Assembly: GCA_903908065.1 (NCBI GenBank) | Contig: CAIVQO010000092.1 | Span: forward strand, 1-64,000 | Length of the DNA stretch: 64,000 bases | Reading direction: 5' to 3' | Source of the DNA: an uncultured beta proteobacterium | Lineage (GTDB): Bacteria; Pseudomonadota; Gammaproteobacteria; Burkholderiales; Rhodocyclaceae | Shown: in pieces, positions 6,557-60,733 of the stretch | Layout of the letters: every line of letters starts with the position of its first letter | How positions within the stretch are numbered: position 1 is the first letter of the stretch | The notes under the pieces: generated by a model | The model's input: the letters and a program-made list of their open reading frames with translations, nothing else | Databases searched by the model: none | What the model was told of the DNA's origin: nothing | Position numbers and translations under genes: made by a program

Positions 6557-8003
6557 CAGCGGCAATCAGTCGATTGAGGATGCTGCGCGCGGCGGGAATC
6601 AGTTCGCTGGCGGCGATCCCGATCGGGCCGTCACCATTTGCGACCAGCAGGTCGGCGGCAAGGCCATGGATATGCACTGCGCCACACAAGGCTGCAGACG
6701 CTGGCCAACCCTGGGCCAGCAGGGCCCCGCCAATGCCGGAAAGGACATCGCCGCTGCCTGCCGAAGCCAGCCCCGGATTGCCGCTGGCATTGACGCGCCA
6801 TTGCCCATTGGGGGTGGCGACCACGGTGCCGCAGCCCTTGAGCGCGACGTGGGCCTTGAAGCGCCGGGCCAGCGTCAGTGCGGCGTCGACGCGGTTTGCC
6901 TGAACGTCGTCGGTGGCAATGCCAAGCAGGCGCGCCGCTTCGGCTGGGTGAGGCGTGATCAGCGTGGGTGCCTGGCGGTGCCTGACCCGCGCCGCAAGTA
7001 CGGGGTGGGCGGCGAGTTGGTTCAAGGCGTCGGCATCGAGCAACAGTGGAAAGTCGGCGCTGGCGACACGGCGAACCAGCTCGGTGGCGGCCACAGAATC
7101 ACCCATGCCGGGGCCGGCGACGATGGCCGTGGCCTGGGCCAGCGCCTCATCGGGTGTGCGCAGCATCAATTCGGGCTGGATCGGATCGACGGCCAGTACT
7201 TCCAGTAGGCCGACGAAGACGCGCCCGGCGCCCAGTTGCAGCCCGGACCGCGCCGCCAGCAGGGCGGCCCCGCTCATGCCCGGCGCGCCGCCGATCACGG
7301 CAAGCGAGCCATGGGTTCCCTTGTGGCAATTGCGCGGACGGGGCCGCAGGCCGCCACGAAAATCCGCCGTCGAGAGCAGCGCTCCCGAATGTCCCTCGAG
7401 CGTTGGGCCCAGGCCATCGACATGGATGTCACCGCAGTGGTCGGGGCCCTGCAAGGTATATAGCCCGGGCTTGCCGCCGATGAAGCTGAGGGTGTGCGTG
7501 GCACGCACGGCCGTGCCAAGCACGCGTCCGCTGTCGCCGTCGAGCCCGCTCGGAATATCCAGGGCAAGCACGGGACCGCCATAGGCATTGATGCGCTCGA
7601 TCAGGGCGGCAAGGTCGCCTGTGATCGGTCGCGCGAGACCAATGCCGAACAGCGCATCGACCACCAGGGAAAAATCCCCTGCTGGAACTTCAGAGCAAAA
7701 GTCGGCGCGGGTGGTACGGCAACTCTGGTAGGCCGCCGCCGCATCCGGAGGCAAGCGCGCGGCGTCGCCGACAAAATGTACGCAGACCTGTCGACCTGCG
7801 CGGGCCAGTTCGCGCGCCAGCACAAAGCCGTCGCCACCGTTGTTGCCAGGCCCGGCGCAGATCAACACGCGTCCGGTGCCAAAACGCGATTGGACGAATT
7901 CCGCTGCGGCACGGCCAGCCCGCTCCATCAACGGGGGCGTGGCTCCGGCATGCTCAACTTCGATGGCGCGCAGTTCGGCGGCGCGAAGCAGGGGAATAGG
8001 CAT
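6549..8003 (-). CDS. nnr: Bifunctional NAD(P)HX epimerase/dehydratase
   Basis: Repairs hydrated NADH and NADPH. The N-terminal YjeF domain (about residues 1-215) epimerises NAD(P)HX: AGPGNNGGDGFVLARELARAG and the ALDIPSGLDGDSG segment are clear. The C-terminal ribokinase-like domain (about 225-480) is the ADP-dependent dehydratase: HKGTHGSLAVIGGAPGMSGA, AGPGMG, LLDADALNQL, LITPHPAEAARLLG and ASAGSGDVLSGIGGALLAQG with the catalytic Asp. Length 484 is normal for the fused form. Two copies of the dispersed 30-nt repeat lie inside it, encoding TTRADFC (near residue 100) and VASADFP (near residue 315). Confidence 0.93.
   Translation of the reverse strand: MPIPLLRAAELRAIEVEHAGATPPLMERAGRAAAEFVQSRFGTGRVLICAGPGNNGGDGFVLARELARAGRQVCVHFVGDAARLPPDAAAAYQSCRTTRADFCSEVPAGDFSLVVDALFGIGLARPITGDLAALIERINAYGGPVLALDIPSGLDGDSGRVLGTAVRATHTLSFIGGKPGLYTLQGPDHCGDIHVDGLGPTLEGHSGALLSTADFRGGLRPRPRNCHKGTHGSLAVIGGAPGMSGAALLAARSGLQLGAGRVFVGLLEVLAVDPIQPELMLRTPDEALAQATAIVAGPGMGDSVAATELVRRVASADFPLLLDADALNQLAAHPVLAARVRHRQAPTLITPHPAEAARLLGIATDDVQANRVDAALTLARRFKAHVALKGCGTVVATPNGQWRVNASGNPGLASAGSGDVLSGIGGALLAQGWPASAALCGAVHIHGLAADLLVANGDGPIGIAASELIPAARSILNRLIAADA
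7048..7074 (+). repeat. Dispersed repeat copy 1 (in nnr C-domain)
   Basis: GGAAAGTCGGCGCTGGCG followed by ACACGGCGA. Contains the 11-base core exactly. Read in the gene's antisense orientation, giving VASADF. Shares 22 consecutive bases with copy 3. Confidence 0.8.
7695..7722 (+). repeat. Dispersed repeat copy 2 (in nnr N-domain)
   Basis: GCAAAAGTCGGCGCGGGTGG followed by TACGGCAA. Exact core, degenerate 3' half, with the ACGGC block kept. Antisense to the gene, giving TTRADF. Confidence 0.7.
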
Positions 8004-8017
8004 GGGTCGATTCTAAG

Positions 8018-8797
8018 TCAGGCACCGGCCAACTCAGGCAGACCGACGAGGCGATATCCGGCCTCGAGCAGCCCCTGGCGCAACACCTGGGCGACCTCCA
8101 CGGCATCGGGGCTGTCGCCATGCACGCAGATGCTACCGATCGGCGTCGGAACCCGCGTTCCGTCGATGGCGATCACGGCGCCGGCGGCGAGCATGGCCTT
8201 GACGTGGGCGAGGCAGGCCGCACCACCATGGATCATCGCGTCGGGGCGCGAGCGCGGCATCAGTTGGCCGTCGGGCAGGTAGGCGCGGTCGGCGAAGATC
8301 TCCTCGACCACGGCCAGTCCTGCGGCGCGACCGGCCGCGACCAGGGCCGATGCGGCCGGGGCCAGCAGGATCAGCCCCGGGTCGATGGCGCGCATGGCGC
8401 GGCAGACGGTGTCGGCCAGCGCACGGTCGACGCAGGCCTGGTTGTTGAGTGCGCCGTGCGGCTTGACGTGGGTGATGCGCGTGCCCTCCAGCGCGGCGAT
8501 GGCGGACAGTGCTCCGATTTGCGCCGCGAGCTGGTTTTCCAGTTCCGTGGCCGAGAGCGCCATGGGGCGGCGGCCGAAGCCGCGCAGGTCGGGGTAGCTC
8601 GGATGGGCGCCGACCGAGACGCCGCGCTCGCGGGCGAGGGCCAGTGTTGTGCGCATCACATCCGGATCACCGGCATGGCCGCCGCAGGCGACGTTGGCCG
8701 AGTTGACCACGCCCAGCATGGCTGCATCGTCGCCCATGGTCCAGGGGCCGTAGCCTTCGCCGAGATCGGCGTTGAGGTTAATCCGCATGTCCGGCAT
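8018..8797 (-). CDS. pxpA: 5-oxoprolinase subunit A
   Basis: LamB/YcsF-family subunit of the ATP-dependent 5-oxoprolinase PxpABC, which opens 5-oxoproline (pyroglutamate) to glutamate. The 259 residues carry the family signature INLNADLGEGYGPW, ANVACGGHAGDP, VGAHPSYPDLRGFGRR, HVKPHGALNNQ and EIFADRAYLPDGQLMPRSR. ATG 8797 has a GGAG 6 bases ahead; ATG 8788 is an alternative. Its start overlaps the end of pxpC by 20 bases, the last of a pxpB-pxpC-pxpA run downstream of a TRAP transporter. Confidence 0.92.
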   Translation of the reverse strand: MPDMRINLNADLGEGYGPWTMGDDAAMLGVVNSANVACGGHAGDPDVMRTTLALARERGVSVGAHPSYPDLRGFGRRPMALSATELENQLAAQIGALSAIAALEGTRITHVKPHGALNNQACVDRALADTVCRAMRAIDPGLILLAPAASALVAAGRAAGLAVVEEIFADRAYLPDGQLMPRSRPDAMIHGGAACLAHVKAMLAAGAVIAIDGTRVPTPIGSICVHGDSPDAVEVAQVLRQGLLEAGYRLVGLPELAGA

Positions 8798-9797
8798 CGA
8801 TGACTCCGTCGATCAGGTTGGCGCCATACAGCGCATCAAGGTTGAATTCACGTGCCGCCGGACGCATGGCAGCAAGGCAGTGGTCCAGTGCGCTGGCAGC
8901 GGCATGTCGGGCGGCCAGGGCGTCATCGAGGCTGACGGCAGCGAAGCGTAGTGTCTGACCGGGAAGGACATGGCCGAGGCGGCGCAAGTCGGCGCCGATC
9001 ACCGTGGCGATCTTCGGATACCCGCCGACCGTCTGGCAATCGGCGAGCAGCACGATCGGCTTGCCGTCGCCGGGCACCTGGATCGCACCGGGGGTTACCG
9101 CATCCGAGACGATGTCGGCACCCAGCGTCGGGTCGTGAGCGAGGCGTGGGCCGTCCAGGCGCAGACCCATGCGATCGGCTTCGCGCGTGACTGTGAACTC
9201 GGCGCCAAGAAAATCGGCCCAGGCCGCGGCCGTGAAGTACTCACCTTGCGGCCCTGCGATCACGCGTATCGGGCCGGCGTCGAGCTGCGGTCTCGCGGAC
9301 AGGCGCTGGGCCGTCGACGGCTTGGCGGGGTCGATTTCGAGCGTATCGCCCGCCCGCAGGCAGCGTCCGTCCAGGCCGCCGATGCCGGCACGAACGTAGG
9401 TGGAGCGGCTGCCCAGGACTGGTGGAACCTGGAGTCCGCCCTCGACGGCCAGATAGCCGATGCCGCTGCGCAGGGTCCCCAGCTCGATGATCTCGCCCGG
9501 GGCCAAGATATGGGCGCACCAGTTCGCCGCCGGGCGTCGCGTGCCATCCTGGGTTTCGATCACGGCGCCGAAGTCGCCACCGAGAGCGATGACGAGCGAT
9601 CGATGGACACGCAGGCGCGGTCCGACCAGGCGCATTTCGAGCACCGCCGCCGATGGGGGATTTCCCGCCAGCGCATTGGCGATATGCATCCACTCGGGAT
9701 CGAGCGCCCCGGAGAGCGGCATGCCGAGATGGCGGTAACCAGGGCGACCGAAATCCTGGATGCTGGTCGGCAGGGGAGCGGCCAGGACCTCGATCAT
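8778..9797 (-). CDS. pxpC: 5-oxoprolinase subunit C (carboxyltransferase-like)
   Basis: 339 residues of the biotin-dependent carboxyltransferase-like family (urea amidolyase/KipA). Seen: IQDFGRPGYRHLGMPLSGALD at residues 13-33, the ILAPGEIIELGTLRSGIGYLA strand pair, and a late GAIQVPGDGKPIVLLADCQTVGGYPKIATVI region. Works with PxpA and PxpB on 5-oxoproline. Its ATG overlaps the pxpB stop in an ATGA junction, indicating translational coupling. Confidence 0.92.
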   Translation of the reverse strand: MIEVLAAPLPTSIQDFGRPGYRHLGMPLSGALDPEWMHIANALAGNPPSAAVLEMRLVGPRLRVHRSLVIALGGDFGAVIETQDGTRRPAANWCAHILAPGEIIELGTLRSGIGYLAVEGGLQVPPVLGSRSTYVRAGIGGLDGRCLRAGDTLEIDPAKPSTAQRLSARPQLDAGPIRVIAGPQGEYFTAAAWADFLGAEFTVTREADRMGLRLDGPRLAHDPTLGADIVSDAVTPGAIQVPGDGKPIVLLADCQTVGGYPKIATVIGADLRRLGHVLPGQTLRFAAVSLDDALAARHAAASALDHCLAAMRPAAREFNLDALYGANLIDGVIDAGHAD

Positions 9798-10513
9798 GGC
9801 AGTCGCCACTGGTCGGCGTTGATCTCGCCGGCCGCCACGGCGGCGTGAAGTTGCTGATAGCGGTCGGCCGGGATCGAGGTGAAGCGCAGGCTGTCCCCCG
9901 GCGCAAACAGGGCAGGGCGGTTCTCGTTGGCCAGGTCGAACAGGCGCACGGGCGTGCGTCCGAGCAAGTGCCAGCCGCCGGGGCTGACCCAGGGGTAGAT
10001 CGCCGCTTGCGCCCCGGCAATGGCCAGGCTGTTGGCAGGAACGGCACTGCGCGGCGTGCTGCGACGTGGCAGGCGCAGCCATTCCGGCAATTCGCCGAGA
10101 TAGGGAAAGCCGGGCAGGAAGCCGAGTAGAAATACCCGCAGTTCGGTGGCGCACAGGGCCTCGATTACCGCCTCGGGGCTGCGTCCGGCGGCAGTGGCCA
10201 CGGCGTTGAGGTCGGGACCGTGCTCGCCGCCAAAGCAAACCGGAATTTGCCACCGTGTCGCCAGCGCCGACTTTTGCACGGGTGCTTGGGCGCAGCGCAA
10301 CAGGCAGTCGGCGAGGCGTTGGCGATCAAGCCGCAGGGGATCGAAGTGCACCGTCAGCGATCGCCAGGTCGGCACGACATCGGTGACCCCGTCAAGCGCT
10401 GCCGCCGCCAGAGCGTCGCGGGTTGCCATGACCTTGGCGCTGAACTCGGGAGCGATGCGATCGCCGAATTCGAGCGTCAGCGCACCGTCGCCCAGGTCGA
10501 GCAAGCGTGGCAT
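9794..10513 (-). CDS. pxpB: 5-oxoprolinase subunit B (KipI family)
   Basis: 239 residues of the allophanate hydrolase subunit 1/KipI family. Typical pieces are GDGALTLEFGD at the N-terminus, IPVCFGGEHGPDL, FLLGFLPGFPYLGELP, LRLPRRSTPRSAVPANSLAI, and YPWVSPGGWHLLGRTP near the C-terminus. The ATG shares a base with the dctM stop (TGATG), so transporter and enzyme genes are coupled. A dispersed repeat copy (10251-10278) encodes VQKSALATRW near residue 85, read in the sense direction. Confidence 0.92.
   Translation of the reverse strand: MPRLLDLGDGALTLEFGDRIAPEFSAKVMATRDALAAAALDGVTDVVPTWRSLTVHFDPLRLDRQRLADCLLRCAQAPVQKSALATRWQIPVCFGGEHGPDLNAVATAAGRSPEAVIEALCATELRVFLLGFLPGFPYLGELPEWLRLPRRSTPRSAVPANSLAIAGAQAAIYPWVSPGGWHLLGRTPVRLFDLANENRPALFAPGDSLRFTSIPADRYQQLHAAVAAGEINADQWRLP
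10251..10278 (-). repeat. Dispersed repeat copy 3 (in pxpB)
   Basis: On the minus strand: GCAAAAGTCGGCGCTGGCG then ACACGGTG, a near-consensus copy. Sense relative to pxpB, giving KSALATR, so the frame differs from copies 1, 2, 4 and 5. Confidence 0.85.
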
Positions 10514-12326: not shown

Positions 12327-12330
12327 CGGA

Positions 12331-13299: not shown

Positions 13300-13354
13300 C
13301 AGCAGTGTCCTCAGGGAAAGTTCGGTTCGAAGGGAAGGAAGCGGGTACAACGTT

Positions 13355-21855: not shown

Positions 21856-22485
21856 ATGGATTCCCTCTTACGTTGCACCGATTGCCCCCGCCTGGCGGGC
21901 TTCCTCGCCGATGTGAGGAGCCGGCACCCTGATTACCACGCCCGTCCCGTGCTTCCCTTTGGCGATCCCAAGGCGCGATTGCTGGTCGTAGGCCTCGCCC
22001 CCGGCATGCATGGCGCCAATCGCACCGGGCGACCGTTCACCGGCGATTACGCCGGGATCCTGCTCTACGAGACGCTGCACGTCTTCGGCTTTGCCTCGCG
22101 GGCAGAATCCGTCGCCGCCGATGATGGGCTGCGCCTGATCGATTGCCGGATCAGCAATGCGGTGAAATGCCTGCCGCCGGAGAACAAACCGGAACCGGCC
22201 GAGATCAAGACCTGCAACCGCTATCTTGCCGAGGAACTGCGTGCGGCTCCGGAGCTGCGTGTCTTACTGGCGCTTGGCCTGGTGGCGCACAAGGCGGTGT
22301 TGATGGCGCTGGGCATGAAGCAATCGGCGTTCTCCTTTGCCCATGGTGCGCGCCACGTCCTGCCGGACGGCCGGATTCTGATCGACAGCTATCACTGCAG
22401 TCGCTACAACACCCAGACTCGCCGTCTCACCAGCGCCGACTTCCAGGAAGTGTTTCGCCGTGTCCGCCAAGACATCGACGCCTGA
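21856..22485 (+). CDS. Family 5 uracil-DNA glycosylase
   Basis: 209-residue iron-sulfur uracil-DNA glycosylase removing deaminated bases. The N-terminal CTDCPRLAGFL supplies two cluster cysteines and CRISNAVKCLPPENK two more. The catalytic motif is VVGLAPGMHGANRTGRPFTGD and the C-terminal motif is DSYHCSRYNTQTRRLT, typical of family 5. ATG 21856 is chosen as the most natural start. The 3' end overlaps uvrC by 26 bases, grouping two repair genes. A dispersed repeat copy encodes TSADF near the C-terminus. Confidence 0.87.
   Translation: MDSLLRCTDCPRLAGFLADVRSRHPDYHARPVLPFGDPKARLLVVGLAPGMHGANRTGRPFTGDYAGILLYETLHVFGFASRAESVAADDGLRLIDCRISNAVKCLPPENKPEPAEIKTCNRYLAEELRAAPELRVLLALGLVAHKAVLMALGMKQSAFSFAHGARHVLPDGRILIDSYHCSRYNTQTRRLTSADFQEVFRRVRQDIDA
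22420..22444 (-). repeat. Dispersed repeat copy 4 (3' end of UDG gene)
   Basis: On the minus strand: GGAAGTCGGCGCTGGTGAG then ACGGCG; matches the consensus at about 20 of 25 positions. The core has one change. Antisense to the gene, giving LTSADF. Confidence 0.6.
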
Positions 22486-24262
22486 ACCCGCGTTCGATGC
22501 CCGGGAGTTCCTCGCCTCCCTGACCGAGGCCCCGGGGGTGTATCGCATGCTCGCCGCCGATCGTGCCGTGTTGTATGTCGGCAAGGCGAAGAACCTGAAG
22601 AAGCGCGTGTCGTCCTACTTTCAGAAGACGGGCCAAAGCCCGCGCATTGCGCTGATGCTGCAGCAGGTCGCGGCGATGGAAGTGACGGCCACGCGCTCCG
22701 AGGCCGAGGCCCTGATCCTGGAAAACACGCTGATCAAGAAGCTCGCACCGAAGTACAACATCCTGTTCCGCGACGACAAGTCCTACCCCTACATCGGGCT
22801 TTCCGGCGGCGAGTTTCCCCGGCTCTTCTACCATCGGGGCGCCTTCGAAAAGAAGTCGCGCTATTTCGGTCCCTTTCCCAGTGGCCTCGCGGTGCGCGAG
22901 AGCATTCAGCTCATCCAGAAAACCTTTCTGCTTCGTACCTGCGAGGAGGCGGTGTTTGCCCATCGCTCCCGTCCCTGCCTGATGCATCAGATCCGGCGCT
23001 GCAAGGCACCGTGCGTCGGCCTGGTTTCTGCTGCTGATTACGGTGCCGACGTAAGGCTGGCGGAGATGTTCCTGCGCGGCCGCCATTCGGAGGTCATCGA
23101 TGGGCTGACGCAGCGCATGGAGGCGGCAGCTACCGCCCTGCGCTTCGAAGAAGCAGCCGCCTGGCGCGACCAGGTGCGCGCGCTGCAGGCGGTGCTGCAT
23201 CGGCAATACGTCAGTTCGACGCGCGATGCCGATGTCGATATCGTCGCCGCCGTGGTCGATCGCGGTGCCCTTTGCATCAACCTCGCCATGGTGCGCGGTG
23301 GTCTGCACCTGGGCGATCGCGCCTACTTTCCGCAGGCGGCCGGTGAAGTCGAGGCGGGCGAAGGGCTGGCGGCATTCCTTGCCCAGCACTACGCCGAGCA
23401 TCCGGTTCCCTCGCGCCTGATTCTCGGCGTTTGGCCGCTGGAGGACATCGACGAGGCGCTCAATGCTGGCCCGCCGCGCAATGAAATGGAGCGCGCCTGG
23501 ATGGAGATGGCGCTGAAGAATGCCGATCTGGCATTGCAGGCGCGCTGGCAAAGCAAATCGCGCAGCAGCAGTCGGCTCGCGGCCTTGCAGGAGGCGCTCG
23601 AACTCGCAGAACCCCCGCGTCGCATCGAGTGTTTCGACATCAGCCATACCCTGGGGGAAGGCACCGTGGCGTCTTGCGTCGTCAATATCGACGGCGCGAT
23701 GAAGAAGGGCGAATACCGCCGCTTCAATATTGAGGGCATCCAGCCGGGGGATGATTACGCCGCCATGCGCCAGGCCCTGACGCGGCGTTACGAGAAGGTG
23801 GCCACGGGGGAGACCGTTTCGCCGGACCTGATCCTGATCGACGGCGGCAAAGGCCAGCATCGCGTGGCGCGGGAAGTCTTCGCCGAACTTGGGCTCGATC
23901 ACCTGGCGAGCATCGGCGTTGCCAAGGGCGAGGAGCGCAAGCCCGGACTCGAAACCCTTTTCGTGCATGGACGGGAGCTGCCGCTACAATTGGCCATGGA
24001 CCACGCCGGCTTCCACCTGATTCAGGAGATTCGCGACGAAGCACATCGCTTTGCGATCGTTGGTCATCGCGCCCGGCGGGCCAAGCCGCGCGGACGTTCG
24101 AAACTTGAGGACGTCGCCGGCGTCGGCCCGACGCGGCGCCGCAAGCTGCTGGCCCAGTTTGGGGGCCTGGATGGAGTCAAGGCGGCGACCATCGAGGATC
24201 TCTGTCGCGTCGAGGGTATTTCGCGTCGCTTGGCGGAAGACATCTACCACGCATTTCATTGA
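22460..24262 (+). CDS. uvrC: Excinuclease ABC subunit C
   Basis: 600-residue dual-incision nuclease of nucleotide excision repair. Domains in order: GIY-YIG nuclease (GVYRMLAADRAVLYVGKAKNL, residues about 20-100), a cysteine-containing linker (RTCEEAVFAHRSRPC, RRCKAPCVG), a UVR helix pair (ALRFEEAAAWRDQVRALQ), the RNase H-like domain (IECFDISHTLGEGTVAS and LILIDGGKGQ), and a C-terminal double helix-hairpin-helix. The start is GTG 22460 inside the glycosylase gene; pgsA follows 1 base after the stop. Confidence 0.95.
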   Translation: MSAKTSTPEPAFDAREFLASLTEAPGVYRMLAADRAVLYVGKAKNLKKRVSSYFQKTGQSPRIALMLQQVAAMEVTATRSEAEALILENTLIKKLAPKYNILFRDDKSYPYIGLSGGEFPRLFYHRGAFEKKSRYFGPFPSGLAVRESIQLIQKTFLLRTCEEAVFAHRSRPCLMHQIRRCKAPCVGLVSAADYGADVRLAEMFLRGRHSEVIDGLTQRMEAAATALRFEEAAAWRDQVRALQAVLHRQYVSSTRDADVDIVAAVVDRGALCINLAMVRGGLHLGDRAYFPQAAGEVEAGEGLAAFLAQHYAEHPVPSRLILGVWPLEDIDEALNAGPPRNEMERAWMEMALKNADLALQARWQSKSRSSSRLAALQEALELAEPPRRIECFDISHTLGEGTVASCVVNIDGAMKKGEYRRFNIEGIQPGDDYAAMRQALTRRYEKVATGETVSPDLILIDGGKGQHRVAREVFAELGLDHLASIGVAKGEERKPGLETLFVHGRELPLQLAMDHAGFHLIQEIRDEAHRFAIVGHRARRAKPRGRSKLEDVAGVGPTRRRKLLAQFGGLDGVKAATIEDLCRVEGISRRLAEDIYHAFH

Positions 24263-34609: not shown

Positions 34610-35767
34610 ATGTTCGCCCCGGCCTACTTCGACCACAACGCGACAACGCCGCTCGCTGCGACGGTGCTCGACGCCATGCTGCCTTATCTGGAAGGCCGCT
34701 TCGGTAATGCGTCGAGTCGCCACGAGTACGGGCGGGCGGCGCGGCGTGCCATCGACGAGGCCAGGCAGCGCGTGGCCTGTGCGGTCGGTGCCCACCCCAC
34801 GGAGGTGATTTTCACCAGTGGCGGGTCGGAAGCCAACAACCTGTTCATCAAGGGTGCGGCGGCCTGCATGACTCCCGGCACGGTGGCCATTTCCGCAATC
34901 GAGCATCCCTGCGTACGCGAACCCGCCAGGGCCTTGCGTCGCTCGGGCTGGATGCTGCGCGAGATTGCCGTCGGTTCGGATTGCCGTGTCGCCTGCGCCG
35001 ACTTTCAAGCGGCGATGGCCGACAAGCCTTCGCTCGTTTCGGTCATGCTTGCCAACAACGAGACCGGTGCGCTGCAGGACGTCGCCGGGCTGGCGGCCAT
35101 GGCGGCGTCGTCACGGGCATGGTTCCATACCGATGCGGTGCAGGCCTGCGGGCGCGTGGCGCTGGATTTTCGCAGGCTCAATTCTGCCGGCGTGCATGCC
35201 ATGACCCTGTCGGCGCACAAGCTGGGTGGGCCCAAGGGGGCGGGCGCGCTGGTGGTCGACAAGCGTGTCGAGATGCAGCCCCTGATCGCCGGTGGCGGGC
35301 ATGAACGTGGGCTTCGGTCGGGAACCGAGAACGTCGCTGCCATCGTCGGGTTTGGTGTCGCCGCCGAACTGGCCGCAGCCAATGTAGAGCGCCGTGCGCG
35401 CGATCTGGCGAAGCTGCGCGACGAACTGGAGCTTGGACTGGTAGCGCAGGGCGCGACGATTTTCGCCGCCGCCGCCGAGCGCTTGCCGAATACCAGCTAC
35501 TTCGCCTTTGATGGCATCGATGGCGAAACCCTGGTTGGCAAGCTAGACCGTGCGGGATTTGCCGTCGCCGCCGGTGCGGCTTGCTCCAGCGCCAACCCCG
35601 AACCCTCCCATGTCCTGCTGGCGATGGGCGTGGAACCGGAACTTGCGCGCGGTGCGGTGCGCATCAGCCTTGGCGCGGACAACACTGTTGCGCAAGTACG
35701 CGAGCTTTTAGCCAGCGTGAATACTACAATCTTGCAACTCAGGGGCCTCACTGCCCTCGTTAGCTGA
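34610..35767 (+). CDS. Second cysteine desulfurase (NifS/IscS-like)
   Basis: 385-residue PLP enzyme, clearly related to but distinct from the IscS that follows. Seen: YFDHNATTPLAATVLDAMLP, GGSEANNLFIKG, HTDAVQACGRVALDF, PLP lysine in LSAHKLGGPKGAG, and catalytic Cys in AAGAACSSANPEPSHVLLAMG. So it should be active in releasing sulfur from cysteine. Sitting between iscR and iscS it is cotranscribed with the isc genes and may be a duplicated donor. A dispersed repeat copy encodes RVACADF at about residue 127-133. Confidence 0.88.
   Translation: MFAPAYFDHNATTPLAATVLDAMLPYLEGRFGNASSRHEYGRAARRAIDEARQRVACAVGAHPTEVIFTSGGSEANNLFIKGAAACMTPGTVAISAIEHPCVREPARALRRSGWMLREIAVGSDCRVACADFQAAMADKPSLVSVMLANNETGALQDVAGLAAMAASSRAWFHTDAVQACGRVALDFRRLNSAGVHAMTLSAHKLGGPKGAGALVVDKRVEMQPLIAGGGHERGLRSGTENVAAIVGFGVAAELAAANVERRARDLAKLRDELELGLVAQGATIFAAAAERLPNTSYFAFDGIDGETLVGKLDRAGFAVAAGAACSSANPEPSHVLLAMGVEPELARGAVRISLGADNTVAQVRELLASVNTTILQLRGLTALVS
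34979..35008 (-). repeat. Dispersed repeat copy 5 (in second cysteine desulfurase)
   Basis: On the minus strand: TTGAAAGTCGGCGCAGGCG followed by ACACGGCAATC. Exact core; one change in the middle; keeps the terminal ATC. Antisense to the gene, giving RVACADF. Confidence 0.75.
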
Positions 35768-37402: not shown

Positions 37403-37807
37403 ATGAGCGCATGCACCAGCACTGAAAACACGAGCGCTGCGCCGCTGGCAGCGCCCGCCGCTTGGCAGGGCGCCGAGCGTGCTAGCCCGGTCACGCTTTC
37501 GGCGCGCGCCGCCGATCACATCGCCAAGTTCCTCGCCAAGCGCGGCAAGGGCATCGGCATTCGCCTGGGGGTCAGGACCTCCGGCTGTTCGGGCATGGCC
37601 TACAAGCTGGAGTTCGCCGACAGCCCGAACCCGGAGGACATCGAGTTCAGCAGCCATGGCGTCAAGGTGCTGGTCGACCCCAAGAGCCTGCCCTATCTGG
37701 CGGGAACAGAATTGGATTACGCGCGCGAAGGGCTCAACGAAGGCTTCAAGTTCAACAACCCGAACGTCAAGGACGCCTGTGGCTGCGGCGAATCCTTCAA
37801 CGTTTGA
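37403..37807 (+). CDS. iscA: A-type carrier IscA
   Basis: 134 residues, with about 27 extra residues at the N-terminus (Ala/Ser/Thr-rich) compared with the usual 107. The conserved part starts [18 protein letters not shown] and carries the three cysteines in [14 protein letters not shown] and [14 protein letters not shown] 37403 is adjacent to the iscU stop; no internal ATG gives the classical length, so the extension seems real. Confidence 0.92.
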
Positions 37808-38349
37808 GCGTCGTGACCGGTCTCGATTTCACGGCTGACCATTTCGCGCTGTTCGGTCTGGCCCGCGCACAGGGCATCGACCTTCCGGCACTGGATCTGC
37901 GCTTTCGCGAGTTGCAGGCCCAGGTCCATCCGGACAAGCACGCTCACGCCTCGGATTCCGACCAACGCCTTTCGATGCAATGGGCAACGCGTGTCAACGA
38001 AGCCTATCAGACGCTGAAAAATCCGCTGGCCCGCGCCCGCTACCTGCTGCATCTGCTCGGGCACGATGCGCAGGTCGAGAGCAACACTTCGATGCCGATG
38101 GAGTTCCTCGTCGCGCAGATGGAGTTGCGCGAGGCGGTGGCCGACGCAAAAGTCGGTGCTGACGATGCAGCGCTTGATGATCTGCGGCGCAAGCTGGTGG
38201 CCGAGATGAAGCAGGACTACCAGCGCCTGCAATCCCTGATCGATGCCGAGACCGACTATGTCGGGGCTTCCGGCCTGGTGCGGCAACTGATGTTCCAGGA
38301 GAAGTTGCTGCAAGAGATCGACGACGCGCTCGAGGCCGTTCTCGCCTGA
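37804..38349 (+). CDS. hscB: Co-chaperone HscB
   Basis: 181-residue J-protein that brings IscU to HscA. The J-domain has [25 protein letters not shown] and the HPD motif in VHPDKHA, then [23 protein letters not shown]; the C-terminal three-helix bundle follows. The start is uncertain: TTG 37804 overlaps the iscA stop, GTG 37813 is in frame. A dispersed repeat copy encodes [10 protein letters not shown] near residue 115-124, in a stretch between helices. Confidence 0.9.
38146..38173 (+). repeat. Dispersed repeat copy 6 (in hscB)
   Basis: GCAAAAGTCGGTGCTGACG then ATGCAGCG: one change in the core (C to T), ACACGGCG half degenerate. Sense to the gene, giving KVGADDAA, the same frame as copy 10 in padI. 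Confidence 0.65.
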
Positions 38350-41647: not shown

Positions 41648-42151
41648 ATGAGCACCACCATTACCCTGCGCGGCACCCCGGTTCGCGTCGATGGCGATTT
41701 TCCTGCCGCCGGCAGCAAGGCCCCCGATCTCAAGCTCACCAGCGCGACGCTGGCCGATGTTTCGCTGCAGGACTTTGCCGGCAAGCGCAAGGTGCTGAAC
41801 ATCTATCCCAGCATCGATACACCAACCTGCGCCAAGTCGACGCGCAAGTTCAATGAAGCCGCCAGCGGTCTGGCCAATACCGTGGTGCTCTGCGTTTCCG
41901 GCGATCTGCCGTTTGCGGCCAAGCGCTTCTGCGAGATGGAAGGCCTGGCCAATGTGGCCCACCTCTCCACGTTCCGTCATCCCGAGTTCATGAAGGCCTG
42001 GGGCGTCGCCTTTGCCGAGGGACCGATGGTCGGCCTTACGGTGCGCGCGGTCGTGGTGCTGGATGAGAACGACAAGGTCATCCATAGCCAGATGGTGCCG
42101 GAAATCGCGCAAGAGCCGGATTACGACGCCGCCCTGAAGGCACTGGGCTGA
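41648..42151 (+). CDS. tpx: Thiol peroxidase
   Basis: 167-residue atypical two-cysteine peroxiredoxin. Peroxidatic Cys in [16 protein letters not shown], resolving Cys in [32 protein letters not shown] is the typical N-terminus. Reduces peroxides with thioredoxin. ATG 41648 has GAGAGGAG upstream. A strong terminator follows. Confidence 0.95.
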
Positions 42152-42160: not shown

Positions 42161-42192
42161 ATTATCGGCGTGCCGCCAGCGCCGACTTTTGC
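42161..42192 (-). repeat. Dispersed repeat copy 7 (intergenic, after tpx)
   Basis: On the minus strand: GCAAAAGTCGGCGCTGGCG followed by GCACGCCGATAAT. Exact core plus the longest 3' extension, 9 bases after the tpx stop and just before its terminator. Confidence 0.85.
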
Positions 42193-42239: not shown

Positions 42240-42950
42240 ATGTCCGCCACGGTCGCCATCATGCAGCCCTATGCTTTCCCCTATCTGGGCTACTTTTCGC
42301 TGGTGGCGGCGGCCGACGTGTTCGTTTTCTACGACGACGTCAATTACATTCCACGGGGCTGGATCAACCGCAACCGGGTGCTGATCAACGGCCAATCGCA
42401 TACCTTCACAATTCCGGTTGCTGGTGCGAGCCAGAACGATCGCATCCTCGATGTCCGCCTGCATGAATTTGACGGCTTTCGCGACAAGTTCCTCAAGCAG
42501 GTCCGGCTCGCCTATGCCAGGGCGCCGAATTTCGAGGCCGGATACGCGTATGTCCTTTCCGTGTTCGCGTGCGAGCCGGCGACGATAGCGCAACTTGCCA
42601 TCGACTCGGTAACCCTGCTGTGCCGGCAACTCGGCATCGAAAGGCGATTCTTGAGGTCGTCGCAGCTATCGCCCGAAACGCAGGGGATGGACAAGGCCGA
42701 GCGGCTGGTCGCGATCACGCGTGCGCTGGGGGCGACGAAATATGTGAATGCCCTGGGCGGCACCGCGCTCTATGACAAGCCCCGGTTCGCCGCACTTGGC
42801 GTGGAGTTGAGCTTCGTCAGTCCGCGTCTGGGTGCGTATCCGCAGGGGCAGGCCGCCGAATTCACGGCAGGCTTGTCGATCATCGATGTCTTGATGAACA
42901 ATTCCGCTGCACAGGTAGTTCGCATGATCGGAGACTATGAACTTGTCTAG
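42240..42950 (+). CDS. WbqC-like protein
   Basis: 236 residues of the WbqC family, found in surface-glycan gene clusters. Seen: VAIMQPYAFPYLGYFSLVAA, FVFYDDVNYIPRGWINRNRV, FTIPVAG, and the C-terminal YPQGQAAEFTAGLSIIDVLM. Family members are thought to act in modified amino-sugar formation; the reaction is not established. Overlaps the following formyltransferase-like gene by 14 bases. Confidence 0.85.
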   Translation: MSATVAIMQPYAFPYLGYFSLVAAADVFVFYDDVNYIPRGWINRNRVLINGQSHTFTIPVAGASQNDRILDVRLHEFDGFRDKFLKQVRLAYARAPNFEAGYAYVLSVFACEPATIAQLAIDSVTLLCRQLGIERRFLRSSQLSPETQGMDKAERLVAITRALGATKYVNALGGTALYDKPRFAALGVELSFVSPRLGAYPQGQAAEFTAGLSIIDVLMNNSAAQVVRMIGDYELV

Positions 42951-46322: not shown

Positions 46323-46853
46323 ATGATCCGCGAGATCCTGCGCATGGGCGATGCCCGGTTGCTGCGGGTGGCGCGGCCGGTGGTTGAATTTGGCTCGACG
46401 CCGTTGGCGGAATTGCTGGGCGACATGCGCGACACCATGGCCCATCTCGATGGCGCCGGATTGGCGGCACCGCAGATCGGCGTCGACTTGCGGGTCGTGA
46501 TTTTCGGCGGCCGCGCAAACCCGCGCTATCCCGACGCGCCGCCGGTGCCCGACACCGTATTGATCAATCCCGAACTGACACCCTTCGGCGACGAGGAAGA
46601 GGAGGGCTGGGAAGGCTGCCTCTCAGTGCCGGGCATGCGCGGCTGGGTGCCGCGCTGGAAGCGCCTCTACTACTCGGGCCAGGATGAAAACGGTCGCCGC
46701 TTCGAGCGCCGCGTCGATGGTTTCCATGCCCGCGTGGTGCAACATGAATGCGACCATCTCGACGGCATTCTCTATCCGATGCGGATCCGCGACTTTCGCC
46801 GCTTCGGATTCACCGACGTGCTGAATCTGCCGGGGGCGGTGGCCGACGAGTAG
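46323..46853 (+). CDS. def: Peptide deformylase
   Basis: 176-residue Fe2+/Zn2+ enzyme removing N-formyl groups from nascent proteins. All three motifs are present: [28 protein letters not shown] (metal Cys) and [18 protein letters not shown] (metal His pair and catalytic Glu). Not adjacent to fmt, so possibly a second copy. Confidence 0.95.
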
Positions 46854-46856: not shown

Positions 46857-46886
46857 CGGCGCCGTATCCCCGGCGCCGACTTTTGC
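46857..46886 (-). repeat. Dispersed repeat copy 8 (intergenic, after def)
   Basis: On the minus strand: GCAAAAGTCGGCGCCGGGG followed by ATACGGCGCCG. Exact core, starts four bases after the def stop, between convergent genes. Confidence 0.8.
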
Positions 46887-46892: not shown

Positions 46893-47294
46893 TCAGCCCG
46901 CCTTGGCGCGCTTGGCTTGCAGGCGCTGGGCGGTCTTTTCGACGCCGACCACGAAGCGGCTGTGCTTGCCGCGCGCCACTTCCTCCACCGCGTCGCGCGC
47001 CTTGAATTCGAAGCTCACGGCCGGGCCATTGACTTCGGTCAGGGTGACGGTGATCTCCACCCACATGCCCATCAGCGTGGCGCCGACGTGGTCCAGCTCG
47101 ACACGCGTGCCGACCGAGTCCTTGCCCGCATCGATGTGCTGCAACAGCAGGTCGCGGCAGGCCATCTCGATGTCGTAAAGCAGGTTGGGCGTCGAATACA
47201 CGCGGCAGTCGTCGCCCATGAATGAGATGGTCTTGTCGCGGTCGATGTCGACGCGGCGGGTGCCGATCAGGCCGGGCTTGAGGGTATCGCTCAT
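46893..47294 (-). CDS. Hotdog-fold acyl-CoA thioesterase (FlK-like)
   Basis: 133 residues resembling fluoroacetyl-CoA thioesterase-type hotdog proteins. The likely catalytic triad lies in YSTPNLLYDIEMACRDLL (Ser/Thr and Glu) and VELDHVGATLMGM (His). Expected to hydrolyse a CoA thioester in the cytosol. Start ATG 47294 has AAGGAGG upstream. It follows the ADP-forming acyl-CoA synthetase gene by 26 bases on the same strand, so the two form an operon next to the phenylacetate genes. Confidence 0.78.
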   Translation of the reverse strand: MSDTLKPGLIGTRRVDIDRDKTISFMGDDCRVYSTPNLLYDIEMACRDLLLQHIDAGKDSVGTRVELDHVGATLMGMWVEITVTLTEVNGPAVSFEFKARDAVEEVARGKHSRFVVGVEKTAQRLQAKRAKAG

Positions 47295-55838: not shown

Positions 55839-55849
55839 CGGAGGTGAAC

Positions 55850-56422
55850 ATGTACGAGGTACGCATACACGGACGCGGCGGGCAGGGTGCAGTTTCCGCC
55901 GCCACCATGCTGGCGGCGGCGATGCTGGAGCAGGGCAAGTACGCTGTGGCGATTCCCGCCTTCGGCTTCGAACGGCGCGGCGCCCCGGTGGTCTCCTTCG
56001 TTCGCTGCAGCGATCGGGAGATCCGCCAGATGACCAACATCTACGCACCGGACTGCCTGATCTGCGTCGATCCCACGCTGACGCGCTCGGTCGACATCTT
56101 CGCCGGCCTCAAGCCCGGCGGCACCCTGGTGCAGGCTACCAACCGACCGCTCGAGGAGGTCAAGCTGGCGCCCAATGTCGCCACGGCCGGTCTGTGCGAT
56201 GCGGTCAGCATCGCGCTGGAGATCTTCAAGCGGCCGATCACCAACACCATCATGCTCGGCGCCTTCGCCCGGAGCACCGGCGTGGTCTCCCTGGAGGCCC
56301 TGCAGCGCTCGCTGGAAGATTCGGATTTCCGCGACGCCGGCCTGAAGCAGAACCTGATGGCGCTGGAGCGCGGCTACAACGAAACCCGGGTACACACCAT
56401 CGAGCAAAGGGCTGCCGCATGA
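55850..56422 (+). CDS. padE: Phenylglyoxylate dehydrogenase, gamma subunit
   Basis: 190-residue gamma domain of 2-oxoacid:acceptor oxidoreductases, starting YEVRIHGRGGQGAVSAATML, with FGFERRGAPVVSFVR and the late NTIMLGAFARSTGVVSLEAL. Part of the enzyme that converts phenylglyoxylate and CoA to benzoyl-CoA, CO2 and NADH. ATG 55850 has GGAGGTG upstream and overlaps nothing; padF overlaps its stop. Confidence 0.92.
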   Translation: MYEVRIHGRGGQGAVSAATMLAAAMLEQGKYAVAIPAFGFERRGAPVVSFVRCSDREIRQMTNIYAPDCLICVDPTLTRSVDIFAGLKPGGTLVQATNRPLEEVKLAPNVATAGLCDAVSIALEIFKRPITNTIMLGAFARSTGVVSLEALQRSLEDSDFRDAGLKQNLMALERGYNETRVHTIEQRAAA

Positions 56423-56715
56423 GACATAACGCCTACCCGATGTTCAACCTCAAGCAGGCCAACGTGCCCGACGACCTGTCGCCGGTGGCCACGGAGATCA
56501 GCCCCATGCTGCCCGGCGACTGGCGCAGCATGCGGCCGGTGGTGGATCGCGACAAGTGCGTCAAATGCGCCGTGTGCTGGCTTTATTGCCCGGTGCAATG
56601 CGTGCAGGAATACCCCGCCTGGTTCGACTTCAACCTCAAGACCTGCAAGGGTTGCGGCATCTGCGCCAACGAATGCCCGCAGCGCGCGATCACCATGATT
56701 CCGGAGGCAGCATGA
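56419..56715 (+). CDS. padF: Phenylglyoxylate dehydrogenase, delta subunit (ferredoxin-like)
   Basis: 98-residue subunit with two [4Fe-4S] motifs: KCVKCAVCWLYCPVQCVQ and TCKGCGICANECPQRAI. Feeds electrons from the thiamine subunit toward the NADH-forming subunit. Its stop overlaps the ATG of a small open frame that separates it from padG. Confidence 0.92.
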   Translation: MRHNAYPMFNLKQANVPDDLSPVATEISPMLPGDWRSMRPVVDRDKCVKCAVCWLYCPVQCVQEYPAWFDFNLKTCKGCGICANECPQRAITMIPEAA

Positions 56716-56885
56716 GCAGCGGAGGGGGACCCGTGAGCGCAGCGAGCGGGGTCGTAGCGTCCGCGATTGCTGCATGCTGCCGACGCGCCGACATGAAAAT
56801 CTATCGACACGCTATCGGAGGCAGCCGCATGATGATTAATCGCCGTATCGCGAGCGCCGACTTTCATCTGACGGAGGCCGCATGA
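56712..56885 (+). CDS. Small open frame bridging padF and padG (57 codons)
   Basis: A 57-residue frame whose ATG overlaps the padF stop (ATGA at 56712) and whose stop overlaps the padG ATG (ATGA at 56882). The product is Ala/Ser/Gly-rich at the start, with CCRRADMKIYRH in the middle and RIASADFHLTEAA at the end; the last part is encoded by a dispersed repeat copy. Three ribosome-site-like GGAGGC boxes, each followed closely by ATGA or ATGATG, lie at 56703, 56818 and 56875. It looks like an insertion or duplication at a former padF/padG junction rather than an enzyme subunit; whether it is translated is unknown. Confidence 0.35.
   Translation: MSSGGGPVSAASGVVASAIAACCRRADMKIYRHAIGGSRMMINRRIASADFHLTEAA
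56834..56864 (-). repeat. Dispersed repeat copy 9 (between padF and padG)
   Basis: On the minus strand: GAAAGTCGGCGCTCGCG followed by ATACGGCGATTAATC. Exact core and the full ACGGCGAT-ATC tail; 18 bases before padG. Confidence 0.8.
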
Positions 56886-58120
56886 GTACCGCCACGCTGG
56901 AAAAGCCCGCGGCCGCGAAGCCGAAGGTCATCCTCGCCGAGGGCAACGAAGCCGCGGCCCTGGGCGTTGCCCTGGCGCGGCCCGACATGGTGGCGGTATA
57001 TCCGATCACGCCGCAGTCCTCGCTGGTCGAGCATGTCGCCAAGCTGATCGCCGACGGCAAGATGGACGCCGACATCGTCGATGCCGAAGGCGAGCACTCG
57101 GTGCTCTCGGTGCTGCAGGGCGCGGCGCTGGCCGGCGGACGTACCTATACCGCTACCTGCGGCCCCGGCCTGGCCTTCATGTTCGAGCCTTATTTCCGTA
57201 CCTCGGGCATGCGCCTGCCGATGGTGATGACCATCGTCACCCGCGACGGCATCACGCCGCAGTCGGTGTGGGGCGGCCACCAGGACGCGATGACGGTGCG
57301 CGAGGTGGGCTGGATCCAGATCTACTGCGAGTCGGTGCAGGAAGTGCTCGACACCACCATCATGGCCTTCAAGATCGCCGAGCACCACGACGTGATGCTG
57401 CCGGTGAACGTCTGCCTCGACGGCAACTACCTGTCCTACGGTGCCTCGCGCGTCGAGCTGCCGCCGCAGGCCGAGGTCGATGCCTTCATGGGCGACAAGG
57501 ACGTGAATTGGCACGTCGCCCTCGACCCTTCGCGGCCGATGGCGGTCGATCCGCTGACCGGGGGCTCGGGCGGCAAGGGGCCGTCGACCTTCGTGCGCTA
57601 CCGCAAAGGCCAGTGCAAGGGCATGCAGAATGCGCTCGCCGTGATCGAGGAGGTGCATGAAGAATGGGCGCAGCGCTTCGGCCGCCGCTTCGCGCCGCTG
57701 GTCGAGGAATACCGTCTCGACGATGCCGATTACGCGATCATGACCCTGGGCAGCATGTCCGGCGCCGCCAAGGACGCCGTCGATGCCGCGCGCGACGCCG
57801 GGCGCAAGGTGGGCCTGATCAAGCTCAAGACCTTCAGCCCCTTCCCTGTCGTGGCGCTGCAAAAGGCGCTGGCCAAGGTCAAGGCGCTGGGCGTGGTCGA
57901 TCGCTCGGTGGGCTTCCGCTGGAACTGCGGGCCGATGTACCAGGAGACCATGGGCGCGCTCTACCGCCTGGGCCGCTTCATCCCCTCGATGAGCTTCATC
58001 GGCGGCCTGGCCGGCGCTGACATCACCGAGGCCCATTTCCAGCGCGTGATCGCCGAGACCGAGGCGCTGCTGACGAACCCGGCGCCCACAGAGCCCGTCT
58101 GGCTCAACGAGAAGGACTGA
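56882..58120 (+). CDS. padG: Phenylglyoxylate dehydrogenase, alpha subunit
   Basis: 412-residue alpha/transketolase-type subunit of a 2-oxoacid:acceptor oxidoreductase: LAEGNEAAALGVALARPDMV, VYPITPQSSLVEHVAKLI, DAEGEHSVLSVLQGAALAGG and MTLGSMSGAAKDAVDAARDAG. Pairs with PadI to form the thiamine-diphosphate site for phenylglyoxylate. padH begins 4 bases after its stop. Confidence 0.92.
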   Translation: MSTATLEKPAAAKPKVILAEGNEAAALGVALARPDMVAVYPITPQSSLVEHVAKLIADGKMDADIVDAEGEHSVLSVLQGAALAGGRTYTATCGPGLAFMFEPYFRTSGMRLPMVMTIVTRDGITPQSVWGGHQDAMTVREVGWIQIYCESVQEVLDTTIMAFKIAEHHDVMLPVNVCLDGNYLSYGASRVELPPQAEVDAFMGDKDVNWHVALDPSRPMAVDPLTGGSGGKGPSTFVRYRKGQCKGMQNALAVIEEVHEEWAQRFGRRFAPLVEEYRLDDADYAIMTLGSMSGAAKDAVDAARDAGRKVGLIKLKTFSPFPVVALQKALAKVKALGVVDRSVGFRWNCGPMYQETMGALYRLGRFIPSMSFIGGLAGADITEAHFQRVIAETEALLTNPAPTEPVWLNEKD

Positions 58121-58124
58121 GGCC

Positions 58125-59384: not shown

Positions 59385-59386
59385 AC

Positions 59387-60733
59387 ATGTCCGCTTATGC
59401 CACCATCGCCTTCGACGCCGCCAAATGTGACGGCTGCGGCAAATGCATGTCTGCATGTTCGATTCAAAAAGTCGGCGCTGACGACACGGCGCGCTCGCGC
59501 ATCCAGATCGGCGGCAGCGCCGACGCAGGCTTCGAGCTGGCCCTGTGCCGCCAGTGCGGCGATCCGCGCTGCGTCGCCGTCTGCCCGGCCGGGGCCCTGA
59601 GCAAGGATGGCGCCAGCGGCGTGATCGGCTGGGATGCCACCAAGTGCGTCGACTGCCTGCTGTGCACCGTCGGTTGCGCCTATGCCGGCATCGCCCTCGA
59701 CGCCGAAGCGGGGCATGTCGCCAAGTGCGACATGTGCGCAGGCGCTCCGGCCTGCGTGCCGGCCTGCCCGACCGGGGCGCTCAGGCACGTCACCACGGCG
59801 CGCATCTACAACGAGGTCGGCCACTGGGAAGACCTGTTCGCCCCAGGCCTGGCCGGTTGCCAGGGCTGCAACACCGAACTGCTGATGCGCCACACGCTGC
59901 GCCGTGCCGGGCCCGACACCGTTCTGGCGACGCCGCCGGGCTGCGTGCCGGGCATGGGCTCGGTGGGCTTCAACGGCACCACGGGCACCAAGGTGCCGGT
60001 ATTTCACCCGCTGCTGACCAATACGGCCGCCATGCTGGCCGGGATCAAGCGCCAGTACGAGCGCAAGGGACGCGAGGTGCTGGCAATGGCCATCGCCGGC
60101 GACGGCGGGGCGTCGGACGTGGGCTTCCAGTCGCTGTCGGGTGCCGCCGAGCGCAACGAGCGCATCTTCTTCATGGTGGTGGACAACGAGGGCTACATGA
60201 ACACCGGGATGCAGCGCTCGAGCTGCACGCCCTACGGCGCCTGGACCTCGACCACCCCGGTGGGCGTGGGCAAGGGGCCGGCGGGAATGCCTTCGCAGGG
60301 CAAGACGCAGGACGCCAAGAACCTGCCGCTGATCATGGTGAACCATCGCTGCGAGTATGTCGCCACGGCCTCCACGGCCTACATGGAGGACCTCTACGAC
60401 AAGCTGGACAAGGCCATCGCCGCCTCGAAGCGCGGTTTCGCCTACCTGCACGTGTATTCGCCCTGTACCACGGGCTGGCGCTTTCCGACCGACCAGAACA
60501 TGGAAGTGGCGAGAAAGGCCGTCGAAACGAACTTTGTCACCCTGTGGGAGTACACCCCGCAGGAGGGCCTGAGTTTCACCCGGAGGATAGACCAGCCGCT
60601 GCCGGTGACCGAGTACCTGAAGGCCATGGGGCGCTTCCGGCACCTGAGCAATGATCAGATTTCACACATACAGTCCAAGGTCGTGGAAAATCTCGCTTTC
60701 GTAAAACAACTGGCCCAAGTGGCAAAGGTATAG
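59387..60733 (+). CDS. padI: Phenylglyoxylate dehydrogenase, beta subunit with ferredoxin domain
   Basis: 448 residues. Residues 1-155 are a polyferredoxin-like domain with cysteine groups CDGCGKCMSACS, CRQCGDPRCVAVCP, CVDCLLCTVGC and CDMCAGAPACVPACP. The remainder is the thiamine-diphosphate-binding subunit: GCQGCNTELLMRHTLRRAG, AIAGDGGASDVGFQSLSGAAE (GDG) and NEGYMNTGMQRS, the metal/thiamine motif. A repeat copy encodes KVGADDTAR between the first two cysteine groups (residues about 28-36). ATG 59387 follows GGAGGTAG. Confidence 0.93.
   Translation: MSAYATIAFDAAKCDGCGKCMSACSIQKVGADDTARSRIQIGGSADAGFELALCRQCGDPRCVAVCPAGALSKDGASGVIGWDATKCVDCLLCTVGCAYAGIALDAEAGHVAKCDMCAGAPACVPACPTGALRHVTTARIYNEVGHWEDLFAPGLAGCQGCNTELLMRHTLRRAGPDTVLATPPGCVPGMGSVGFNGTTGTKVPVFHPLLTNTAAMLAGIKRQYERKGREVLAMAIAGDGGASDVGFQSLSGAAERNERIFFMVVDNEGYMNTGMQRSSCTPYGAWTSTTPVGVGKGPAGMPSQGKTQDAKNLPLIMVNHRCEYVATASTAYMEDLYDKLDKAIAASKRGFAYLHVYSPCTTGWRFPTDQNMEVARKAVETNFVTLWEYTPQEGLSFTRRIDQPLPVTEYLKAMGRFRHLSNDQISHIQSKVVENLAFVKQLAQVAKV
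59465..59493 (+). repeat. Dispersed repeat copy 10 (in padI)
   Basis: CAAAAAGTCGGCGCTGACG followed by ACACGGCGCG. Exact core and matches copy 1 over AAAGTCGGCGCTG-CGACACGGCG with a single difference. Sense to the gene, giving KVGADDTA. Confidence 0.8.

Follow-up and report, generated by a model that had tools for sequence, protein, structure and literature searches.

A 64,000-nucleotide stretch of DNA from an uncultured beta proteobacterium of the Rhodocyclaceae (contig CAIVQO010000092.1 of assembly GCA_903908065.1; the whole stretch is called the window) holds ten copies of a short dispersed repeat that proved to be genome-wide rather than local to the window. The interpretation we favour, at a probability of roughly two in three, takes the repeat for a genomic DNA-uptake sequence (DUS; in Pasteurellaceae uptake signal sequence, USS) read by a competence receptor; words of this kind serve Neisseria and Haemophilus as 'self' labels in selecting DNA for uptake, and the repeat resembles them. 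On this view, a predicted surface receptor for DNA, part of the type IV pilus apparatus of competence, would prefer a bipartite word of 24–25 bp, and fragments bearing the word would be taken up and recombined more often. Copies and near-copies would build up in permissive places through substitution and biased recombination (molecular drive), and a change of receptor would lead lineages to diverge into dialects. We infer that the process is driven by uptake, with a minor pilin as reader of the word, in bacteria that are naturally competent. A sequence-only reading of the window had proposed three candidates for the repeat, namely a DNA-uptake signal, a mobile mini-repeat and a chromosome-organising site; the observation of the repeat itself was confirmed and its interpretation was partly supported, in that the first candidate fits best, the second was discarded and the third stands as a rival, one without replichore strand bias.

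Detailed counts were made in 455,103 sampled bases of the 3.84-Mb genome to which the window belongs (the window genome), where the repeat takes the form of a sharply bounded two-block word with the profile RRRAGTCGGCGCTGGCG-NN-ACGGCGR. Across the whole window genome 620 sites fit the full motif within 3 mismatches, compared with 4 for the reversed-pattern control, at a density of about 1 per 6 kb and with 301 sites on one strand and 319 on the other. The exact 11-mer core was found 348 times, compared with 1 control match. Within the sample, 71 sites fit AAAGTCGGCGCTGGCGNNACGGCG within 4 mismatches (9, 20, 18, 14 and 10 sites with 0, 1, 2, 3 and 4 mismatches, respectively), against 2 in the reversed sequence and a mean of 0.3 upon third-order Markov resampling; sites with 5 mismatches were at chance level (5 vs 4.7 expected). 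When 12-mers were ranked by observed over expected counts in 1.26 Mb of the window genome and a second, one-contig genome of its genus (G002; genomes, genera and fetched loci or stretches bear G-, g- and L-numbers, respectively), the top ten were all pieces of the motif. In the window, cores at up to 1 mismatch numbered 16, compared with a shuffle mean of 2.38 and a maximum of 7 among 100 shuffles.

The edges of the motif were abrupt in an alignment of 171 exact-core copies. Of these, 116 carry the full 25-mer by selection; in the other 55 the right block ACGGCG was retained in 47 to 53 copies, base by base, whereas the flanks and the two bases just ahead of the block were near-random. The A's preceding AGTCGG vary between A and G. 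The conserved unit is about 24–25 nt long, less than the 27–33 nt first assigned to it, and the TnATC tail that had been included in the repeat is without conservation. The profile bears out the earlier remark that the word is not palindromic; it is directional, and its consensus forms a weak hairpin only (best RNA fold −7.7 kcal/mol with 5 pairs on one strand and −4.1 on the other). Partial tandem duplications of the motif occur. An RNA element as the identity of the motif was rejected, as a scan of the window against Rfam at gathering score returned four tRNAs only and no RNA element at the motif.

Most copies lie within called genes (49 genic and 22 intergenic in the sample of the window genome, or 51 and 20 with joined contigs; 99 and 50 in G002). 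The sequence-only reading held that selection acts on DNA and not on protein, and named a genome-wide comparison with a shuffled-codon control as the check that could refute this. Upon synonymous-codon shuffling, coding copies numbered 49 observed vs a mean of 7.8 in the window genome, 99 vs 18.6 in G002, 46 vs 5.5 in G039 and 27 vs 2.2 in G048, so that observed copies stayed well above the shuffled means, in support of selection on DNA. The means of 7.8 and 18.6 imply that proteins account for a minor part of the coding copies. Coding copies fall in several frames and both directions, the frequent encoded peptides being KVGAGDTA-like in sense and RRxASADF and AVxPAPT in antisense. A conserved peptide was rejected as the explanation because several frames and both orientations are used and because synonymous shuffling removes most, though not all, of the coding copies.

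Per base, the motif is denser between genes than within them, with intergenic to genic density ratios of 5.0 in the window genome, 4.2 in G002, 2.3 in G039 and 1.7 in G048. Convergent intergenic gaps hold the motif about 3 times more densely than other gaps. A terminator as the main function was rejected, since the majority of copies are genic and unpaired. In low-GC bins of the four genomes pooled, copies were scarce (8/313, compared with 226/2498 chance-level near-matches; odds ratio 0.26, p=1.7e-5); composition alone yields low-GC ratios of 0.50–0.67 and only the excess beyond that was counted. This scarcity is no more than a proxy for scarcity in acquired or foreign DNA. In viral contigs (at least 120 stretches with a total of 1.09 Mb, host flanks being possible) the motif was found 66 more times when one site per stretch was excluded, or 0.61 per 10 kb, as compared with 124 sites in 0.84 Mb (1.48 per 10 kb) in cellular loci (L001–L114). 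A search of plasmids gave 3 weak matches, none covering 80% of the query.

The distribution along a chromosome was evaluated in G002, sampled as 40 stretches of 20 kb, in which 68 copies were on the plus and 81 on the minus strand. Plus and minus counts were similar in the first half (37/42) and in the second (31/39) despite GC skew that is mostly positive in the former and mostly negative in the latter, and therefore no orientation by replichore was seen among the 149 sites. By eye, no cluster at the origin or terminus of replication was found in the 40 sampled stretches; two stretches had none, and one of the two lies close to the second change of skew. Counts in 5-kb bins were slightly under-dispersed (variance/mean 0.64–0.89). 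This spread over the whole sampled chromosome is also what the main rival calls for, namely that a chromosome-structuring or DNA-processing protein, such as a nucleoid organiser or a segregation or recombination factor, binds the word, which would be kept by selection at each site. A long, directional word of two blocks with position-specific conservation would suit such a protein, and the dialects described below could equally track a co-evolving binding protein. The absence of replichore orientation is unlike FtsK-orienting polar sequences (KOPS) or Chi, and the intergenic preference, the scarcity in low-GC bins and the lack of a palindrome likewise argue against a chromosomal site. Furthermore, exact cores range from 23 to 415 within one genus, which would be odd for a housekeeping site. 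We regard this rival as unlikely, yet as the one to be taken most seriously.

Orthologous sites were compared in order to evaluate how copies are gained and lost. At sites 7050, 7698 and 10251 of the window, orthologs within the genus mostly hold the motif at the same position; at 7050 one ortholog (L143, from G021) is without both motif and gap, and another from a motif-poor species (L162, G017) shows merely a 6-mismatch likeness. The fetched loci gave 129 independent positions with an alignable relative, 65 of them with a relative lacking every dialect tested, that is, with 7 or more mismatches to each. The lacking ortholog was ungapped at ≥70% identity at 12 of the 65 positions (five above 80%), and a gap of at least 18 was found in the subject at 4, all four in comparison with G039 or G048 stretches. 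This difference suggests that the word mostly appears or vanishes in place by substitution and not by insertion of 25 bp. One position carries different dialects without a gap in G002 (L184:19218) and G039 (L336:18237), and at window site 34982 the G052 ortholog has a dialect-like variant, again without a gap.

These alignments bear on the mobile mini-repeat suggested earlier, in which the 25-bp unit would be a mobile element, akin to miniature inverted-repeat transposable elements (MITEs) or repetitive extragenic palindromic (REP) sequences, that is tolerated in genes. Dispersal in both orientations and within coding sequence, the partial tandem duplications and the indel-prone sites are all consistent with such an element. 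The ungapped lacking orthologs speak against it, as do the weak hairpin, the two nearly free bases within an otherwise fixed word, which are unlike random decay, and the concerted shifts of dialect between genera. Mobile insertion of the unit was rejected, neither a clean presence/absence insertion nor a strong hairpin or terminal inverted repeats having been found, and we give this explanation very little credence.

The 24-bp motif is interrupted by a short hairpin in some orthologs; the hairpins have a fixed orientation and occur in different genes. The H3 type lies between AAAGT and CGGCGC in 9 of 10 matches as judged by eye (L137, L145, L167:10624, L169:3432, L171:5141 and 17211, L197:17196, L059:7957 and L288:9104), with 1 match in the reversed control; the automatic flag for two motif halves marked 0 of these 10, as compared with the 9 followed by the right motif half by eye. 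The H1 type has two other insertion points, each used in one orientation, and gave 17 matches (among them L136, L146, L149, L154, L156, L174:12581, L180, L224 and L031), with 0 in the reversed control. Both motif halves were flagged nearby for 9 of the 17, one of them falsely (L174:10708, which is near a motif only), and at least one, L136, was missed. An H2 type was seen by eye in L059, L073 and L082, and the pattern search for it fell below its reversed control (12 matches vs 24). At sites 7050 and 10251 the interrupted copies differ in length from uninterrupted orthologs by 12, 15, 24 or 36 bases, each divisible by three, and as the word is uninterrupted in most other orthologs, the hairpins look like insertions into the motif. 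They possibly originate from gene conversion between motif copies or from a site-specific mini-element.

Such insertions raise the question of whether the word is conserved as a landing site, at which a site-specific recombinase would act or the hairpin mini-elements would insert. The placement of the H3 and H1 types between motif halves and the uninterrupted orthologs at 7050 and 10251 would be expected of a target. Interrupted copies are a small minority, with one recognised in the 455 kb of the window genome (L129), and a landing site leaves hundreds of intact targets and the dialects unexplained; the H2 counts do not help it. As an account of the word it is, in our view, highly improbable.

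Comparison of genera indicates that lineages have dialects sharing one architecture. In the sister genus g10 the dialect reads AAAGTCAGTCCCGGCG-NN-ACGGCG and was found de novo as the top word. The g10 genome G039 was initially scored as a non-carrier and was later shown to carry its own dialect: in 400 kb the 11-mers that rank first all derive from AAAAGTCAGTCCC, and AAAGTCAGTCCCGGCGNNACGGCG is matched at 61 sites with up to 4 mismatches vs 0 upon reversal of the sequence, whereas no site has the Sulfuritalea form at ≤2 mismatches. In g19 (G048) the ending is mostly ACGGCA and AAAATC occurs alongside AAAGTC; three genomes of g19 have 200–460 matches to the pattern ARTCGGCGCTGGCGNNACGGCA at ≤1 mismatch. 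A g85 genome (G114) reads AGTCGACGCTGGCG in all matches listed (6 and 7 in two listings). A middle-free pattern, AAAGTC N7 GCG NN ACGGCG at ≤1 mismatch, was run on 297 genomes and 10 of 68 genera were found to have a genome with at least 30 sites; 9 of 11 g10 genomes had 147–372 and 4 of 6 g106 genomes 74–248. G043 (g14), in which the canonical pattern fits 94 sites within 3 mismatches and the AAAGTC-anchored one a single site, perhaps represents a further dialect with a different start. A g23 dialect resembling AGTCAGCGC in G052 is not claimed, the signal being weak (50 sites) and conservation diffuse. Two other word families were observed alongside: TTCTTGGCAGCGGGCTTCTTCGCCGG words are over-represented in G052 (L284–L303) and are perhaps coding repeats of a lysine/alanine-rich protein, and TCTGTGTCTCT-type words occur 13 times in 400 kb of G039 (L324–L343), with almost none expected, perhaps as a tandem array.

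Carriers were surveyed in 199 genomes from 68 genera of the family, a carrier genus being one with a genome of at least 30 sites at ≤3 mismatches. This resulted in 11 carrier genera (g1, g8, g14, g19, g23, g78, g85, g86, g96, g104 and g106), the non-carrier genera having at most 25 sites, mostly near control. Loci with the exact 25-mer (80 listed of at least 114) belong mostly to Sulfuritalea, Rhodocyclales or Rhodocyclaceae, with Sulfurisoma, Rugosibacter, Zoogloea, Sulfurimicrobium and others also among the matches listed; Sulfurisoma sediminicola BSN1 is a named carrier strain. A search of 30 genomes for RpoB was successful in 23, with carriers of g8, g78 and g96 among the misses. In the resulting tree of 23 tips, all 11 carrier tips (8 genera) together with G152, a motif-poor, 79%-complete genome of g23, form one clade with support of 100/99, and G039 is its sister (95/94). 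By this tree, all placeable carriers, which amount to 8 of the 11 genera, belong to one Rhodocyclaceae clade. As a separate observation on the same protein, the RpoB segment is 10 residues longer (1143 vs 1133) in G048, G115, G182, G193 and G052, which group together (L269, L277, L280–L282).

The competence machinery was examined in 28 genomes, and the reading frame of ComEC was open and without stops in all 28. Operons of type IV minor pilins are present in G002 and G048. A FimT-type pilin query gave matches in 26 of the 28 genomes, several in the common N-terminus only and one, in G008, with an internal stop. The FimT-like pilin of G002 best matched NCBIfam NF007800, a prepilin peptidase-dependent protein, at 31 bits vs a cut-off of 158. 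Presence of ComEC or of a FimT-type pilin was dropped as a receptor marker, as neither discriminates between carriers and non-carriers. In Pasteurellaceae the predicted receptor is the minor pilin PpdA (PpdA/ComN), according to passages of PMC12616744, and ComP is described as restricted to Neisseriaceae in a part of PMC8897410, which can also be read as saying that FimT motifs elsewhere are non-specific DNA binders.

Several of the observations weigh against the word being an uptake sequence. The motif is sparser than the uptake signals of Neisseria or Haemophilus, which occur about once per kb, and it is about twice the length of a DUS; most of its features are equally expected of a chromosomal protein-binding word. 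Near-perfect inverted pairs are rare (2 among 149 sites in 800 kb of G002), and the evenness of spacing in the window genome is not significant by itself, 7.1% of simulations being equally even. Indels are frequent at the sites: of 336 lacking alignments, 81 were ungapped at the site, as compared with 270–286 in windows 100–150 bases away, mostly owing to additional bases on the side of the ortholog (99/336), from 5 positions. ComEC is shared by 14 carriers and 14 presumed non-carriers (one of which, G039, turned out to carry a dialect). The FimT query missed both G114 and G039 among the 28 genomes, and since both carry the motif this speaks against a FimT-type pilin as reader of the word; among the pilins found, none was specific to carriers and hence no receptor was singled out. 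Motif-poor genomes occur in motif-rich genera (G017 and G016 in g1, G152 in g23, G221 and G332 in g10, G309 in g19, G288 and G245 in g106), possibly because the system was lost, a different dialect is used or the assembly is incomplete; they would be of use as natural controls. Lastly, the non-carrier G047 has three perfect copies (C1:1807611, 4957515 and 5002087), for which relics, transfer from a carrier and chance are candidates; in a 200-kb sample of G047 no site was found at ≤5 mismatches and the leading 11-mer was the unrelated, partly palindromic GTCATGACTTT (n=7).

The proposed uptake sequence can be set beside known dispersed words. REP sequences and bacterial interspersed mosaic elements (BIMEs), MITEs and Rickettsia palindromic elements are likewise short, dispersed, present in both orientations and sometimes genic, whereas the motif gave no clean insertion when orthologs were compared, forms a weak hairpin only, is conserved position by position and has concerted dialects. 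KOPS, Chi and matS are also short genome-wide words read by a protein, as the motif putatively is; KOPS and Chi are replichore-oriented, and the motif differs from the three in being without such orientation, not palindromic and in intergenic excess. A DUS spans 10–12 bp, unlike the motif of about 24 bp, which has a free NN, an unrelated sequence and a density several times lower. USS cores have AT-rich flanks, in place of which the motif has a second GC-rich block, ACGGCG; its hosts are GC-rich and it is sparser. Passages of PMC1939737 describe uptake sequences as non-palindromic, without orientation bias, in non-coding excess and of gradual origin by point mutation and not insertion, and together with parts of PMC12616744 they give the Pasteurellaceae USS (Hin AAGTGCGGT, Apl ACAAGCGGT) the same traits around a core word. 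The Neisseriaceae DUS, with ComP as its receptor, is in parts of PMC3630211 and PMC13020248 a non-palindromic word that occurs in excess on either strand and is more frequent in permissive DNA and between genes, with lineage dialects around a shared core and inverted pairs at some terminators, the last being rare here.

No report of the motif or of uptake sequences in Rhodocyclales was found in the open PubMed Central literature, preprints being outside its scope and most matches, among those listed, being judged by title. DUS and USS were found described only in Neisseriaceae and Pasteurellaceae within that literature; passages of a natural-transformation study of another Burkholderiales bacterium (PMC4212676) mention uptake signals for these two families only, and the opening of the abstract of PMC7811141 likewise names no others. 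It is somewhat more likely than not that environmental Rhodocyclaceae have a third, independently evolved form of sequence-marked uptake, in which the signal is long and bipartite, three dialects or more are clear (Sulfuritalea-, g19- and g10-type, with a fourth in g85) and hairpin mini-elements land precisely inside the word. As only two families have been described, the causes of uptake-signal evolution are hard to infer. If true, a third, unrelated environmental lineage, its word and dialects spanning about a dozen genera, would make it possible to compare how receptor and word co-evolve, to ask which surface protein reads the word and to test what marking is for, be it the recognition of kin, nutrition or molecular drive alone. 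It would also provide a handle for transforming these bacteria.

The ten copies in the window are collected in Table 1. All ten dispersed copies first noticed were recovered, eight with the exact AAAGTCGGCGC core and two with one mismatch in it, and a simple gene caller, from which the gene positions are taken, gave the same split of 7 genic and 3 intergenic copies. The called gene that holds the copy at 22420 overlaps the start of the uvrC gene at 22460-24262(+).

Table 1. Copies of the two-block word in the window, with mismatches to the motif, position of the core and surrounding called genes.
Feature	Coordinates	Strand	Core	Context
Motif, 0 mismatches	7050..7073	+	7050, exact	antisense within YjeF-type NAD(P)HX dehydratase/epimerase gene 6549-8003(-)
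Motif, 3 mismatches	7698..7721	+	7698, exact	antisense, second copy within YjeF-type gene 6549-8003(-)
Motif, 1 mismatch	10251..10274	-	10264-, exact	sense within carboxyltransferase-domain (CT_C_D) gene called 9794-10513(-)
Motif, 2 mismatches	22420..22443	-	22433-, one mismatch	antisense within called gene 21856-22485(+)
Motif, 2 mismatches	34982..35005	-	34995-, exact	antisense within class-V aminotransferase gene 34610-35767(+)
Degenerate motif, 4 mismatches	38149..38172	+	38149, one mismatch	sense within hscB-like gene 37804-38349(+)
Motif, 1 mismatch	42166..42189	-	42179-, exact	intergenic, called genes 41648-42151(+) / 42240-42950(+)
Motif, 2 mismatches	46860..46883	-	46873-, exact	intergenic, convergent genes 46323-46853(+) / 46893-47294(-)
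Motif, 1 mismatch	56841..56864	-	56854-, exact	intergenic, 5' of pyruvate:ferredoxin-oxidoreductase-like gene 56882-58120(+)
Motif, 1 mismatch	59468..59491	+	59468, exact	sense within iron-sulfur/thiamine pyrophosphate (Fe-S/TPP)-domain gene called 59387-60733(+)

A second repeat, TCCGCAGATTTC / CGAAATCTGCGG, which is unrelated to the motif, was observed in 12–13 copies in the 1.26 Mb made up of contigs of the window genome and L165–L204.

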